Assembly (NCBI GenBank): GCA_903926465.1
Contig: CAIYJE010000009.1
Location: 1 to 41,771, forward strand
Length of the DNA stretch: 41,771 bases
Direction of reading: 5' to 3'
Origin: an uncultured Planctomycetales bacterium
GTDB taxonomy: Bacteria; Planctomycetota; Planctomycetia; Isosphaerales; Isosphaeraceae
Shown in pieces: positions 4,236 through 10,392 of this stretch. The notes below the pieces were generated by a model, which saw nothing but the letters and a program-made list of their open reading frames with translations, was not told where the DNA came from and did not search any database. A program made the position numbers and the translations under genes. Position 1 is the stretch's first letter, and every line of letters begins with the position of its first letter.

Positions 4236-5543
4236 ATGGCATATCGATCGGTGTTTCTGGCCGTACTCTTGGGAACCGCGATGATTGTGGCCGCGCTCTT
4301 GATCAATCGGGCCCGACCCTCGTTTGAAGTGAACCAGCCCACAATTTCGCTGGTGCGTGCCTCAGGCAAGTGCGCGGAGTGCCATCGGCGTGAAACCGCG
4401 GCCGTTGTGCATGAATTCGAACTGAGCCGTCATGCGCTCAAAGGGGTGACCTGCCTAGACTGTCACCAGACGGCGGGCGGTCAGGAAGAGCTGGATCACC
4501 GTGGTTTCAAGATCTCAAAGCAGTTGACGGGTGCCAACTGCAAGCAGTGTCATCCCCACGAATATGAGCAATTTCTGAGAAGCCGACATGCTGCGCCGGC
4601 CTGGGCCGCCGTGCGTGGGCCTGAAGACTTTAGTGCCGAGCAGATTCAGTTCAGTGAGCAGTTTCATCCGGGAGCGGTGAACAGGAAAGCGAATATGCTT
4701 GCCATTTGTGAAGGGGCCGGTGCCATCTCTCGCGGCTGCACGGCTTGCCACGATGTGGGTAAGCCGAATCAGGATGGGTCAATTGGAAGTTGTACCAAGT
4801 GCCATGCGCGCCATGTGGCTTCCGTGGAGCTGGCCAGACTGCCGGAAACGTGTGGTCAGTGCCACCTGGGCCCCGATCACTCTCAGATCGAGATCTATCA
4901 CGAGTCAAAGCACGGCGTGCTGTTCAACGCCCAGCGCAAGATCATGAATCTGGAAGCTCGCCCCAAGGAGCTCAAGGTCACGGATATGCCGGTGCCCACC
5001 TGCGCCACCTGTCACATGAGTGGAATCGAAGGACTCAAGGTTACGCACGACACTACGGAGCGGCTTTCTTACTTTCTGTTTGCAGAGCACACAGAGCTTC
5101 GGCCAACCGGCCAGCAAGGGCAGTTGGCCATGAAGGAAACCTGTGCCAAATGCCATACCACACCCACCATTGAGCGGTTCTACACAGAGGCCATTACCGT
5201 ACTCAACGAAACGAATGACCATATCAAAGAAGCGTCTACGATTGTTGAGAAGCTCCGCGTGGATAAGTTGCTCACACCGGTGCCATTCGATGAGCCGATC
5301 GAGTTTCTGTACTACGACCTCTGGCATTATGGTGGCCGGACCGCAAAACATGGCGCGTTCATGGGCGGGGCCGACTTCGTTCAGTGGCACGGTTACTACG
5401 AGGTTGTGAGCAAACTCGTCGAACTCAAAAGAATGGCCGAGGAACTTCGCTCAGCGCATCAAACTCCTCGTCAGGATCGCCCAGCCGATGATAAGCCCGA
5501 AACCAGCGCTGTTACCCAACCGAACAGCTTCACCGGAAACTAA
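4236..5543 (+). CDS. Octaheme c-type cytochrome, hydroxylamine-oxidoreductase-like
   Basis: The 435-residue protein has an N-terminal signal or anchor helix (about residues 5-23) and exactly eight CXXCH heme c motifs: CAECH 46, CLDCH 73, CKQCH 102, CTACH 168, CTKCH 186, CGQCH 206, CATCH 256 and CAKCH 303. Order, spacing and the C-terminal signature WHYGGRTAKHGAFMGGAD...QWHGYYEV match the HAO / octaheme family (hydroxylamine oxidation, or reverse-acting nitrite/hydroxylamine reduction). It should sit in the periplasm, or the paryphoplasm of planctomycetes. It is shorter than bacterial HAO (about 550 residues). In true HAO a Tyr in the C-terminal part cross-links to heme 4 (P460); Y359/Y360 are candidates, but I cannot align them by eye, so the reaction direction is open. 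A textbook AGGAGGT lies 5 nt before ATG. The next gene overlaps its 3' end. Confidence 0.9.
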   Translation: MAYRSVFLAVLLGTAMIVAALLINRARPSFEVNQPTISLVRASGKCAECHRRETAAVVHEFELSRHALKGVTCLDCHQTAGGQEELDHRGFKISKQLTGANCKQCHPHEYEQFLRSRHAAPAWAAVRGPEDFSAEQIQFSEQFHPGAVNRKANMLAICEGAGAISRGCTACHDVGKPNQDGSIGSCTKCHARHVASVELARLPETCGQCHLGPDHSQIEIYHESKHGVLFNAQRKIMNLEARPKELKVTDMPVPTCATCHMSGIEGLKVTHDTTERLSYFLFAEHTELRPTGQQGQLAMKETCAKCHTTPTIERFYTEAITVLNETNDHIKEASTIVEKLRVDKLLTPVPFDEPIEFLYYDLWHYGGRTAKHGAFMGGADFVQWHGYYEVVSKLVELKRMAEELRSAHQTPRQDRPADDKPETSAVTQPNSFTGN

Positions 5544-6468
5544 ACCGGCGCTCGGTGGGTCTTGGATCCATCCCCTGGTCTGCGCAGAACTGTTCGCGGT
5601 GGCGAATCTGGCGTTCCTGGGGGTCGATATCCTGCTGGCTCACTCGATGAACGCGTTCCACAACCCGGCCGAGTGGTATCCGATCTATTTCTCAGCAGTG
5701 GCGAGTTTGCTGCTGCTCATCAGCCAGATCCTGACCCGCCTGCGGCCAGATCCAGGCTCCTGGCCCCAGGGTAATCTGGCCGCGCGAAGACGCTGGCAAT
5801 GGGGCCGTGCGCTCGGATTATTCGTGGGCGCAAGTGCGGTTGTGCTGGGGGTTGTTGGTCTGATTTATCACCTTCAGAACCAGTTTTTCGAGCTCAGGAC
5901 CATCAAGAGCCTGGTGTACGCTGCCCCTTTTGTGGCTCCACTGGCTTACACCGGGGTGGGTCTGCTGATTGTTTTGAACCGCATGGTGGCTTGCGACCAG
6001 CCCGAATGGGGCTGGTGGGTTGTGACGCTGGCCATGTTTGGCTTCGCCGGTAATTTCGTGCTCAGCCTGACCGATCATGCCCAAAATGGCTTCTTTCATG
6101 CGACCGAGTGGATCTCTGTTGTGGCCGCCGCTTACGCCACGGCCAGCCTTGTTGCAGTCATGATTCAGCCTGAGTCCAGGCCCGTGCTCCGATTTACGGC
6201 ATGGATTCTGGGCGGGGCGGGGGTTGTTGGCATGCTTGGTGCGGGCTTGCACCTTTTGGGGAACTTCGAGCCGGCAGAGCTCTTCGCGTTCAGCCAGGAC
6301 TTGCTGTCTGGGAAGGTTTCTCAGCTTCTGACCTCCCAAGAGCTTCGTGATCGCCTGATCTACGGCGCTCCGGCGTTTGCGCCGCTGCTCTTCACCAACT
6401 TGTCGGTCCTCGGTGGGCTTGGACTCTGGGGGATCGTTCGCACCAGGGCTGGGTCCTCGGTTCGATAG
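5488..6468 (+). CDS. 8-TM membrane protein with internal duplication, HAO-associated
   Basis: I do not recognise the family. The 326-residue protein has about eight hydrophobic segments (near 30-50, 64-84, 108-128, 142-165, 176-194, 208-226, 236-256 and 292-316). The two halves are related: H52-x-x-N-x-F-x4-E-W in half A recurs as H197-x-x-N-x-F-x4-E-W in half B. A later His (H128, H255) sits in a Gly-rich helix in both, and YxAPxxAPL recurs at 144 and 292. The conserved, duplicated His residues near helix ends could bind heme b or a quinone. The start overlaps the octaheme gene by 56 nt, so the pair is translationally coupled. I infer that it anchors the cytochrome or passes its electrons to or from the quinone pool. 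The exact start is uncertain; an alternative start could lie a few codons later. Confidence 0.8.
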   Translation: MISPKPALLPNRTASPETKPALGGSWIHPLVCAELFAVANLAFLGVDILLAHSMNAFHNPAEWYPIYFSAVASLLLLISQILTRLRPDPGSWPQGNLAARRRWQWGRALGLFVGASAVVLGVVGLIYHLQNQFFELRTIKSLVYAAPFVAPLAYTGVGLLIVLNRMVACDQPEWGWWVVTLAMFGFAGNFVLSLTDHAQNGFFHATEWISVVAAAYATASLVAVMIQPESRPVLRFTAWILGGAGVVGMLGAGLHLLGNFEPAELFAFSQDLLSGKVSQLLTSQELRDRLIYGAPAFAPLLFTNLSVLGGLGLWGIVRTRAGSSVR

Positions 6469-6731
6469 TGCCAAGGTGAACGTTTGGGTATCGGTTGCCC
6501 GGTGTTTTTTGCATTCCCGGTCAGGATTCGTAGAGAGCTGGGTGGCCGCCGCTTGAACTTGGCTTTGGTGTCTGACTGTTGTAGAGTTATAGGTGGCCGC
6601 CTGGTCTGCCAGCGTTGCGCCTTTCCGGGCCCGGACCGGACACCCGCCTCAGACTCTCATGCCTACCCGGCCGTCTTGAAATCATGCCCATGACGTCCCC
6701 AGAGATTCAACGGACTCCGGAACCCCACACA

Positions 6732-9038
6732 ATGGGCCATCGTCCCGTGATTGCCTTTGTGCTGCTGGGTTTTCTGATGGCCGGCACACGTGCCAGAGCC
6801 GCCGATGATCCGCCCACCGGCGAGCAGATTTACACGCGGTTATGCGCGAACTGTCATGGGGCCACGGGGCAGGGGACCAATGAGACCCAGAATCACCCCT
6901 TGATTGGAGACAAGTCGATTGGTCAGCTGACCAAGCTGATTGAGAAGACTATGCCCGAGGACAATGTGGGTAGCTGCGTGGGAGACGATGCAGCGAGTGT
7001 GGCTGCCTTCATTCACGAATCATTTTACTCGCCCACGGCACGGGCTCGGAACGAAGTGGCGCGGGTTGAGCTGGCGCGCCTGACCGTGTCTCAGTACCGG
7101 AACGCGGTGGCCGACCTGATCGGTCATTTTCGTCAGCCGCAGGGGCCGGGTGTAAGAATCGGTTTGCGTGGTCAATATACCAGAGTTGAGGAGAAGGAAC
7201 GCCATCGGGTGATCGACCGGACGGACCCGGTGATCGACTTTGATTTTGGTGAGGGGAGTCCCGCGGCCGAGGCTATTTCTCCCGAAGAGTTTTCAATTCA
7301 GTGGCAGGGTTCGGTCTTCGCTCCCGAGACTGGTGATTACGAATTCGTTGTCAAAACCAAAAACGGTATGCGTTTATGGGTGAATGACAACCGGACACCG
7401 CTGATTGACGCCGATGTTCGGTCTGGGGTTGATCCTGAGTATCGGGCGAGCCGGTTCTTGCTTGGTGGCCGGACTTATCCGCTGCGCCTGGAGATGAGAA
7501 AGTCCAAGAACGCCAAGGAGAAGACGGCGGCCATAACGCTCGGCTGGAAAATCCCAGGCGGGATCCAGGAGGTGATTCCCCAGCGGTATCTTTCGCCGGT
7601 TCACGGTGGTGAAACCTTTGTGGTTGCGACACCGTTTCCCCCCGACGACCGAAGTGTTGGGTATGAGCGAGGTACCAACGTCTCAAAAGCCTGGGAACAG
7701 GCGACCACCAGCGCGGCCTTGGAAATTGCGTCTTTTGTGGCAAACAGAGTGGATCGACTTGCTGGTACCTCTGCGGACGCCCCGGACCGGGCTGAACGGA
7801 TCAAGGCGTTTTGTGGCCGCCTGGCGGAGCAAGCATTTCGTCGCCCGCTGACACATGAAGAGACTGCGCTTTATGTCACTCGCCAGTTCGAGAAACCGGG
7901 CGATCTCCTTGCCGCGGTGAAGCGTGTCGTGGTGCTGGTCATGAAGTCGGCCCACTTCTTGTACCTCGACATTGAGGGGCGCCACGACGATGGGTTTGCC
8001 GTGGCTTCCCGCCTTTCGTTTGGATTGTGGGATTCGTTGCCTGATAATCAGTTAATGGAGGCGGCAAAAGCCGGACGCCTGGCCACCCGTGACGATGTGC
8101 GCAGGGAGGCCGAAAGGATGCTGGCAGACCCGAGAGCGCGGGCGAAGCTCAGGGAATTTCTTATCCAGTGGCTTCATGCCGAAGGATCGCCAGAGATTTC
8201 CAAAGACTCCAAGAAGTTTCCAGAGTTCAGCCGTGAGATTGCGGCCGATCTGCGTACCTCTTTGGAGCTGGCCCTGAACGAGATTGCGTTGAGCCAATCG
8301 GCCGATTTGCGTCAATTGTTTCTGGCCGATCTTTTCTTCGTGAATGGCCGCTTGGCGAAGTTTTATGGCTTTGAGTTGCCAGAGGGTGCACCGTTTCAGG
8401 TAGTGAGGCCGCCGGCTGGTAGCCGTTGGCCTGGTTTGGTTTCTCATCCCTACCTCATGGCGATGCTGGCTTACTCAGGGGCAAGTTCACCAATTCATCG
8501 TGGCGTGTTCCTCTATCGCAACGTGCTGGGTCGTTCCCTGCGTCCACCGCCGGTTGCGGTGGCACCGCTGGCTCCCGAACTGGAGCCGCATCTCACCACC
8601 CGCGAGAGGGTTTCGCTTCAGACGAGCCCCGAAACCTGCCAGACCTGCCACGGTCAGATCAATCCTCTGGGTTTTTCGCTGGAAACCTATGACGCGGTGG
8701 GTCGGTTCCGGGCTACGGAGAATGACCGTGCCATTGATGCTTCGGGCTTTTACGTGGATCGCGTGGGGGCCCGGCATGAATTTGCCAGTACCACGGCGTT
8801 GGTGGAATACCTGGCGCAAAGTGAGGAAGTTCATCAAGCCTTCACCGAGCAACTTTTCCACCACCTGGTCAAGCAGCCCGTGGCCGCGTTTGGAACCGGC
8901 TTGCCTGCTTGGCTCCAGACCAGACTGATTGAGCAGAACTTTCACATACAGAAGCTGCTGGTCGATATTATGGTAAGCACGGCATTGCGCAGTGAATCTC
9001 AGACCCGAGCTCCCAGCGTTTCCGACCTCCGGCATTGA
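6732..9038 (+). CDS. DUF1592/DUF1588/DUF1585 planctomycete cytochrome with PA14 domain
   Basis: From the ATG at 6732 the product starts [21 protein letters not shown], a clean signal peptide with cleavage near ARA-AD; in-frame starts at 6615, 6684 and 6690 would only lengthen the n-region. Mature order: a c-type heme motif CANCH (cytochrome c domain), a DUF1587-like short segment ([16 protein letters not shown]), a PA14 domain ([20 protein letters not shown]...[11 protein letters not shown]), then DUF1595/1592/1588 with [18 protein letters not shown] and SSPIHRGVF, a second [19 protein letters not shown] (DUF1588) and a C-terminal DUF1585. Such proteins are extremely common in Planctomycetota and are nearly always followed by a DUF1552 gene, as here (gap 37 nt). 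A carbohydrate-related extracellular redox role is suspected for the group but not proven. Confidence 0.9.
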
Positions 9039-9075
9039 TGGTCCTGAATTCCGACAAAGAATGAGGCGACTCCGT

Positions 9076-10392
9076 ATGGCACTTCACGTGAGCCGAAGAA
9101 CGTTTCTGAAAGACCTGGGCCTGGGTTCGGCTGCCCTGCCATTCCTGTTGAATTTATCCTCCCTGAGTCATGCCAATCCTGGGAATCCGAAACAGCGGCT
9201 GATCATTGTTTTCAGCCCCAACGGGGTTGTGCCGCCGGCCTTCTGGCCCGATGAAGTTGGCTCAGACTTCAAGCTCAAACGCAGCTTGGCACCGCTAGAG
9301 CCGTTCCGTTCTCGGACGATGATTTTGAACGGGGTTGCGGATAAGGTTCGGGGCGATGGCGATAACCACATGCGTGGTATTGGCTGTTTGTTGACCGGCA
9401 TCGAGCTCTTCCCAGGCAATATCCAGGGGGGCTCGCACACGCCGGCTGGCTGGTCGAGTGGCCACTCGATTGACCAGGAGATCAAGAATTTCCTGCAATC
9501 TCAGCCGGAATCGCGCACCCGGTTTGGCTCTCTGGAGTATGGGGTCATGGTTCCAGAGCGGGCCGACACCTGGACTCGCATGGTGTACGCCGGGCCCAAC
9601 AAGCCGATTTCACCGATTGATGACCCCTATCAGATGTTCTCCAAGCTGTATGGGCGTGTGAAAGACCGAGAGAGTTTGCAGAGTATTCTGGATGACGTCC
9701 AGGAAGACCTTCGGAAGGTTGAGCAGGTGGTGGGGGCGGCCGATCGCCGCTTGATTGAAGAGCACGCCACGTTTGTGCGGGAAATGGAGCAGGAGCTGAA
9801 AACGTCTGCCAGCGCCGATGTTGGGCATCCGGTTCCGGAACTTGAGCCTGGCCTGAAGCATGAAAATGATCAGATGCCCAAGCTGACCCGGACCCAAATT
9901 GATTTGCTGGTGCAAAGTTTGGTGGCCGATTTCACGCGGGTGGCCACGTTCCAGTTCACCAATTCGGTGGGCCAGGCCAAGATGCGCTGGATTGGGGTGG
10001 ATCAGAACCACCATGAGCTATCGCACGAGCCGGATAGCAACGAAGAGGCTCAGGAGCAACTCACCAAGATCAACCTTTGGTTCTGCGAGCAACTGGCCTA
10101 CCTGGCCCAGCGGCTGGCAGATACGCCAGAGCCTGGCGGTGAGGGATCGATGCTGGATCATACCCTGATCGTTTGGACCAACGAGCTTGGTAAGGGGAAC
10201 TCGCACACCTTGGATGATATTCCGTTTGTGTTGGTGGGTGGAGCGCCTGGGTTCAAAATGGGCCAGTCTCTGAAGTTCCCCCAGGTGCCACACAACCGGT
10301 TGTTGCTTTCACTGGCGCACTCGATGGGGCACCACCTGGATCGGTTCGGGAATGTCGACTACTGCGGCGATGGCCCGCTTTCTCTGGGTTAA
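9076..10392 (+). CDS. DUF1552 family exported protein
   Basis: The product begins [25 protein letters not shown], a Tat-type signal (SRRTFLK). An in-frame ATG at 9061 and the frame opening at 8992 are alternative starts; I prefer 9076 because GAGG precedes it and the Tat motif then lies near the N-terminus. The body has the DUF1552 hallmarks: [19 protein letters not shown], the L..L.P....[13 protein letters not shown] region, [19 protein letters not shown], and the C-terminal [25 protein letters not shown]. The fold is related to the alkaline phosphatase/sulfatase-like DUF1501 group. It is the standard partner of the DUF1592 cytochrome upstream, probably co-transcribed and co-exported. No biochemical role is established. 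Confidence 0.9.

Follow-up and report, generated by a model that had tools for sequence, protein, structure and literature searches.

An internally duplicated membrane protein tied to one clade of octaheme cytochromes and its putative role in quinol-linked electron transfer

To our knowledge, it is still largely an open question how the many octaheme cytochromes of organisms other than nitrifiers and anammox bacteria receive their electrons, and a planctomycete locus raises it in a concrete form. The window analysed here, i.e., the whole stretch of 41,771 nucleotides (nt) of contig CAIYJE010000009.1 (GCA_903926465.1) from an uncultured Planctomycetales bacterium of the Isosphaeraceae, carries two overlapping genes on the plus strand: that of an octaheme cytochrome c of the HAO/IhOCC family (OCC; 4236-5543, 435 residues) is followed by that of a membrane protein (MEM; 5488-6468, 326 residues, ATG start) with eight transmembrane (TM) helices. 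Is MEM a partner of OCC and, if so, of what kind? The original prediction, made from the letters of this DNA alone, described two copies of the motif HxxNxFxxxxEW in MEM (residues 52-63 and 197-208), a recurring second His (128/255), a recurring YxAPxxAPL (144 and 292) and an overlap of 56 nt with an octaheme gene. All these positions were correct on recheck; the upstream open reading frame (ORF) contains eight CxxCH motifs, and its last 56 nt (5488-5543) lie within MEM. MEM is a real, widespread and previously unnamed bacterial membrane family tied to one octaheme clade, and it is probably the electron-transfer partner of OCC; we also lean towards the fuller explanation, in which MEM would serve as membrane subunit in a quinol-linked octaheme cytochrome system encoded by two genes.

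That MEM is a tandem duplication of a four-TM unit can be stated plainly. The first unit comprises residues 24-168 (5557-5991) and the second residues 167-326 (5986-6465; these and the other features of the two genes lie on the plus strand). In an HHalign comparison of the N-terminal and C-terminal halves, based on a 72-row alignment of which 68 rows were used, the halves align with a probability of 98.45 and a score of 87.4 over 110 columns, compared with 14.1 for the reversed C-terminal half and at most 27.0 for 100 shuffles that preserve the hydrophobic class of each column. The duplication claimed in the original prediction is thus borne out against shuffled hydrophobic sequence.

Conservation was counted over 74 distinct MEM sequences, that of the window included, after removal of matches covering fewer than 220 residues. 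Four His residues, two per unit, are identical in 74 of 74: H52, at the end of helix 1 (residues 29-53) in motif 1, HSMNAFHNPAEW (5641-5676); H128 (5869-5871) on helix 3 (97-136); H197, at the end of helix 5 (172-198) in motif 2, HAQNGFFHATEW (6076-6111); and H255 (6250-6252) on helix 7 (231-259). N40, D47 and D196 are likewise identical throughout, as are Y144, P147 and P151 of YAAPFVAPL (residues 144-152, 5917-5943) and P295, A298 and P299 of YGAPAFAPL (residues 292-300, 6361-6387), and two further acids are nearly invariant (E62 in 68 and E207 in 73 of the 74). The AlphaFold2 model consists of eight long helices (mean pLDDT 89.9, pTM 0.87); H52 and H197 lie right at the tips of helices 1 and 5, and H128 and H255 close to those of helices 3 and 7. 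The first half predicted alone gives four long helices (pLDDT 90.9). Over the 72 rows, the N terminus and loops 2-3 and 6-7 carry more basic than acidic residues, loops 1-2 and 5-6 are nearly uncharged, loops 3-4 and 7-8 are slightly acidic and the C-terminal end is about neutral. Most loop charges thus place the His-bearing helix ends on the periplasmic side, and the simplest topology would have cytoplasmic termini and place all four His at the periplasmic face. MEM itself carries no CxxCH motif.

How closely do MEM and OCC belong together? When 84,980 species genomes were scanned with two conserved MEM peptides, a search biased toward close relatives, 74 loci were obtained. Full-length MEM is present in 70 of these, and in all 70 an ORF matching the OCC profile lies upstream on the same strand. 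The MEM ORF starts between -400 and +160 nt from the OCC stop in 68 of the 70, the remaining two (L058 and L101) being ORFs with long 5' extensions; OCC is truncated by a contig end in L071, L084 and L102, and the partial MEM matches L104-L107 (78-116 residues, no OCC; L105 at a contig start) were excluded from the pairing count. Among 59 relatives, whose genomes are partly shared with the 74 loci, 14 have MEM and OCC adjoins it in 13; the fourteenth genome (G029) has only a 144-residue MEM remnant. Within 294 genomes of the phylum, ten OCCs exceed 500 bits, each from one of the ten genomes that encode full-length MEM, the next best OCC reaching 313 bits; an eleventh genome (G248) holds a 28-residue MEM end, whose context is not visible because it lies at a contig start. 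A search of 392 genomes with the 72-row MEM profile returned 13 strong matches, three of them new, and the fetched flanks of these three also contain OCC. Pairwise MEM and OCC distances (71 pairs) are correlated (Mantel r 0.63, against at most 0.29 in 1000 permutations), a value to which common host descent would add. The pairing is strict and reciprocal and concerns one OCC clade, and the genomic link to multiheme cytochromes that had been anticipated was found. Judging by record titles, the hosts are planctomycetes, Verrucomicrobia, Acidobacteria, Poribacteria, Gemmatimonadetes, Bacteroidetes/Rhodothermia, Deltaproteobacteria, Minicystis rosea and others.

The next question concerns the cytochrome. 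OCC of the window matches the Pfam family Multi-haem_cyto (1.1e-24), and its closest solved relative is 4qo5, which we take to be the Ignicoccus octaheme cytochrome (IhOCC), followed by HAO. Eight CxxCH motifs are present in 71 of the 72 OCCs longer than 340 residues (L084, cut by the contig end, has seven). The fourth (residues 168-172, 4737-4751) aligns in HMMER with CTMCH of HAO 4fas, presumably P460 heme 4, and its C168, C171 and H172 are kept in 72 of 72, as is D214-H215 (4875-4880), found at the same alignment place as D267-H268 of HAO 4fas, which we assume to be the distal active-site pair. Y388 is also invariant (72/72); the profile alignments to HAO end before Tyr467, its cross-linking tyrosine. 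Towards the C-terminus, K371 and H372 (5346-5351) are each invariant in 72 of 72, and Tyr is absent from both columns. Because of this invariance, and because a key site is His in reductive HAOs and Tyr in oxidative ones according to PMC12758564, OCC is likely to be a reductive enzyme, as far as its sequence can tell. An N-terminal hydrophobic stretch of OCC (residues about 5-23) is a candidate anchor or signal peptide.

Further indications come from the eight next-closest OCC loci, in which a membrane partner was resolved in L150, L155 and L156 only. Cytochrome b adjoins OCC in L150, cytochrome b and a Rieske protein in L155, and NrfD, an Fe-S protein and a molybdopterin enzyme in L156, i.e., known quinone modules stand beside OCC in three of the eight sister loci. 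The other five loci are L151, L152 and L157, where longer overlapping ORFs hide OCC, and L153 and L154; L151 has a molybdopterin enzyme close to OCC, and L152 has a prismane protein. MEM occupies the place of these quinone modules and most likely stands in for them as the quinol-side subunit of an OCC that works reductively on nitrite, NO or hydroxylamine.

Within this context, the following mechanism is proposed. MEM arose by tandem duplication of a four-TM unit, and in each unit the His at the end of the first helix and the His near the end of the third would hold a cofactor at the periplasmic face; these two helices run parallel and should stand diagonal to each other in a plain up-down bundle. 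The cofactor would most likely be one bis-His heme b per unit, and we consider the case for heme b in the His pairs of MEM to be evenly balanced. MEM would oxidise membrane quinol periplasmically and pass the electrons to OCC, whose heme-4 pocket would reduce nitrite, NO or hydroxylamine; in L062 and L068, Hcp encoded upstream would complete the reduction of hydroxylamine to ammonium. The system would thus be a counterpart of the reverse hydroxylamine:ubiquinone redox module (reverse HURM), with MEM in place of a NapC/NrfH-type cytochrome. That the MEM/OCC system as a whole runs in the reductive direction appears to us reasonably likely.

The gene neighbourhood was examined for signs of nitrogen-oxide metabolism, to which the informative surroundings of MEM do point, if sparsely. 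Genes of at least 110 residues within three places of MEM were tallied, and of the 272 listed, 249 were scanned by Pfam; the 23 left out comprise nine over-long ORFs, two overlapping ORFs and 12 ORFs from the partial loci L104-L106, and the scan input contained one ORF entered twice and one distant ORF that had been added. The Pfam results give the best 25 of 124, 84 and 87 families, and counts of nitrogen-related neighbours are lower bounds. Two loci show an apparent operon in which hcp, occ and mem follow one another (L062:3081-6795, hcp to occ 24 nt; L068:3079-6864, hcp to occ 23 nt), and among the families listed the Prismane family is matched in two A5 members. A gene for a qNOR-type NorB immediately follows MEM in L044, L049 and L061, and in L036 it is the second gene downstream and has the opposite orientation; genes for a Crp-type regulator and YgbA_NO lie near L044, L049 and L061, some recognised by Pfam and the rest by BLAST clustering. 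In a contig of the Planctomycetes-Verrucomicrobia-Chlamydiae (PVC) group, MEM is fused to an NnrS domain (L102:687-2699, 1.4e-32), and the MEM remnant of G029 stands beside a qNOR-type NorB (L031:6527-6961; L158:3155-5449), with no octaheme gene found in the fetched stretch. According to PMC1274295, core members of nitrogen-oxide-responsive regulons include hcp, nnrS and nor genes. In the window's family, Hcp occurs in 6 of 14 members with MEM and in 2 of 23 without (one-sided p 0.02, kinship uncorrected). A combined count of Hcp or NorB (13/14 vs 12/23, one-sided p 0.01) was formed after viewing the data and is not used as evidence. For strain ZRK32, the host of L047, nitrite reduction is assigned to NirBD in PMC10945688, the main text of which contains neither the word cytochrome nor the word hydroxylamine and speaks neither for nor against a role of the MEM/OCC pair.

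Does MEM belong to any known family? No significant Pfam, NCBIfam or PDB sequence match was found (NCBIfam was queried with the window protein only), and among 72 MEM members no match at E 0.1 was obtained with the NrfD/PsrC profile PF03916 or with the Pfam profiles of cytochrome b (bc1/b6f), b561 and CtaA. Kinship with CtaA and NnrS was rejected on sequence by HHalign (probability 2.0 against ten CtaA proteins and 2.6 against nine NnrS proteins, both small comparison families from which two of 12 and three of 12 had been dropped as insufficiently hydrophobic ORFs). In the VIA structural comparison, in which the best Z for mostly helical models is typically 14, the whole MEM model matched 3d19 best (Z 15.9, root-mean-square deviation 4.0 over 239 residues; next row Z 11.6), whereas the matches of a MEM half were diverse four-helix bundles (best Z 12.9), among them designed heme bundles and, at Z 9-11, copper storage proteins. 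These VIA matches are taken to reflect common architecture and nothing more. The Foldseek and VIA matches listed include no cytochrome b, NrfD or CtaA, which excludes nothing. In the open-access literature searched, as far as its text was available, no description of MEM was found.

The four-TM unit has relatives. The search of the 392 genomes with the MEM profile also gave two marginal matches (E 1.3e-4 and 6.2e-4, single-genome values), each consisting of one four-TM unit (ORFs of 145 and 158 residues). In HHalign, this pair aligns with the second half of MEM with a probability of 96.3 and a score of 57.2 (best of 100 shuffles 24.8) and with the first half with a score of 34.6 (best shuffle 20.3). 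A search with the pair returned six more members in the 392 genomes and two marginal matches, one of them MEM itself. The resulting family of eight (L199:5234-5671, L200:5772-6248 and L212-L217) has no Pfam match in the two members scanned, and all eight keep both His, with an acid six residues ahead of the first and a proline after it, as well as a P-x-LAP motif. In seven of the eight loci, the adjacent gene has the LNPN/LDPN-type start of a helix-hairpin-helix (HHH) protein, with a signal-like N terminus by eye and an HHH_3 Pfam match confirmed for one; a slightly stricter form of this pattern was found in 0 of 70 MEM loci, and no gene with two or more CxxCH motifs lies within four places in the single-unit loci. 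The two-His four-TM unit thus stands alone, the single-unit family looks like the undoubled form of the MEM unit, and the simplest view of MEM is that of a doubled version which was recruited to OCC. The existence of a stand-alone unit also makes one cofactor per unit more credible, whichever cofactor it may be. It is possible, and we put it forward tentatively, that MEM represents a new class of quinol dehydrogenase composed of two four-TM, two-His heme-b units and that, together with the undoubled form that is partnered by HHH proteins in other bacteria, it makes up an undescribed superfamily of redox modules, undescribed being meant relative to the libraries searched in this analysis.

Several observations weigh against the interpretation of MEM as the quinol-side subunit of a nitrogen-oxide-reducing system. 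A nitrogen-oxide neighbour or fusion was seen in at least 7 of 70 full-length MEM loci, several of them mutually related (a lower bound, because only the best 25 families of each Pfam result were listed); three of the four loci with NorB as a neighbour belong to close Verrucomicrobia, and the window's own neighbours of MEM, a DUF1592/DUF1588 protein and the next gene, are uninformative on nitrogen. In the window's family, NorB occurs in 9 of 14 members with MEM and 10 of 23 without (p 0.19). The absence of a match to the NapC/NrfH profile PF03264 from 13 of the 14 MEM genomes of this family counts in favour of the interpretation but says little by itself, because the profile is also matched in 0 of 23 members without MEM and, mostly weakly, in 7 of 8 MEM genomes outside the family. 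MEM matches no known heme-b or quinone family by sequence, and Foldseek found no match below E 0.001 in the PDB for the whole protein or its first half. Loop 4-5 is acidic (72 rows) where the topology expects it to be basic. Furthermore, the single-unit members retain both His without a multiheme neighbour, and the His pair may serve something other than electron transfer to OCC. The claim that MEM is a new membrane partner of HAO-like cytochromes stands as regards the duplication, the paired His and the link to OCC, whereas the unit also occurs without OCC, so that its basic function may not be specific to HAO-like cytochromes. The electron-transfer role that had been inferred originally is supported by context, i.e., by cytochrome b or NrfD in three of eight sister loci and by the two loci with hcp, occ and mem in a row.

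The same observations bear on other explanations. Clusters of His and acids are common in quinone sites, and each half of MEM has an invariant acid near its His (D47, D196) as well as a near-invariant one (E62, E207), so it might be asked whether MEM binds quinone or quinol directly at its His/Asp/Glu clusters, without heme and in the manner of NrfD/PsrC, and passes electrons straight to a heme of OCC. NrfD, an all-helical multi-TM protein, indeed adjoins a sister OCC. However, none of the 72 MEM members matches the NrfD profile, two invariant His on parallel helices in each unit in our judgement resemble heme ligation more, and we regard such a site as unlikely. A role in the maturation, anchoring or heme handling of this OCC clade, instead of electron transfer, would fit the one-to-one pairing with a single clade, and the eight TM helices in two His-bearing four-helix units resemble heme A synthase CtaA; nevertheless, the absence of any CtaA match in profile or HHalign searches and the presence of quinone modules at the same place in three of eight sister loci make this improbable.

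It is about equally improbable that the system works in the oxidative direction, with OCC oxidising hydroxylamine or NO and MEM reducing quinone. Such a direction would be in line with the match of D214-H215 to D267-H268 of HAO and with the invariant Y388, yet the closest solved relative is 4qo5 and not HAO, no Tyr occurs at K371/H372 (the Tyr467 column itself lies outside the alignments) and the informative neighbours (Hcp, qNOR and NnrS) are reductive or detoxifying. Least probable of all, in our view, is that the conserved His and acids of MEM form sites for Cu, Zn or Fe and not for heme or quinone. The best structural match to the whole model, 3d19, is titled a conserved metalloprotein, and copper storage proteins are among the matches to a half; but 3d19 has an identity of 4% and a Foldseek E of 1.4, its Z is barely above the ordinary 14, and the invariant His are confined to two helices.

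If MEM is considered as the membrane subunit of a quinol-linked octaheme system, it can be compared with known arrangements. CtaA/Cox15 has eight TM helices in two four-helix bundles derived from duplication, with paired His, and so shares its architecture with MEM; however, there is no profile similarity, and the His of MEM stand on helices 1 and 3 of each unit, those of CtaA on helices 2 and 4. NrfD/PsrC and cytochrome b (bc) modules occur beside three of eight sister OCCs, yet have no sequence match to MEM. The single-unit family shares with MEM the unit itself by HHalign, both His, the acid before the first His, the proline and the P-x-LAP motif, but it has one unit and an HHH-type neighbour instead of OCC. 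Like the HAO-family cytochromes (4qo5, N. europaea HAO 4fas and reductive HAOr), OCC has eight CxxCH motifs, and it has the D-H pair in common with HAO 4fas, where 4qo5 has D-V; it differs in forming a separate clade tied to MEM. In the reverse HURM of Nautilia profundicola, as described in PMC3701875, octaheme Hao is fed by the NapC/NrfH-type CycB and followed by Hcp. An octaheme enzyme of the Hao family would thus be linked to quinol by a dedicated membrane partner in both cases (for MEM, this role is putative), and Hcp, the next step in that pathway, is encoded beside occ-mem in two MEM loci; in contrast, the partner here, MEM, is an eight-TM duplicated protein that lacks c-heme motifs and does not match the NapC/NrfH profile. 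PMC11266412 notes Onr-related octaheme proteins in Phycisphaerae and, in the part available, does not mention a membrane partner.

Other features of the window may be mentioned briefly. A terminator-like stem-loop lies past the MEM stop (6486-6507, plus strand), which is weak given that the region has three such structures against a shuffle mean of 2.9. The stretch 3' of MEM (6615-10392) holds an overlapping pair of genes, the first encoding a DUF1592/DUF1588 protein with PA14 and cytochrome c domains and the second an ORF of 466 residues, probably the one neighbour matching HXXSHH (DUF1552). At the other side, 16-1925 is occupied by overlapping ORFs with long Pro/Gly-rich, collagen-like repeat runs.

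With MEM, a widespread clade of octaheme cytochromes can be assigned a specific membrane partner, and the short gene pair lends itself to testing. If MEM is indeed a heme-b quinol dehydrogenase, it would open a new path by which electrons of the quinone pool reach nitrite, NO or hydroxylamine, which would bear on ammonification and NO detoxification in soils and sediments. In that case, it would also be an instructive example of how redox bundles evolve by duplication.

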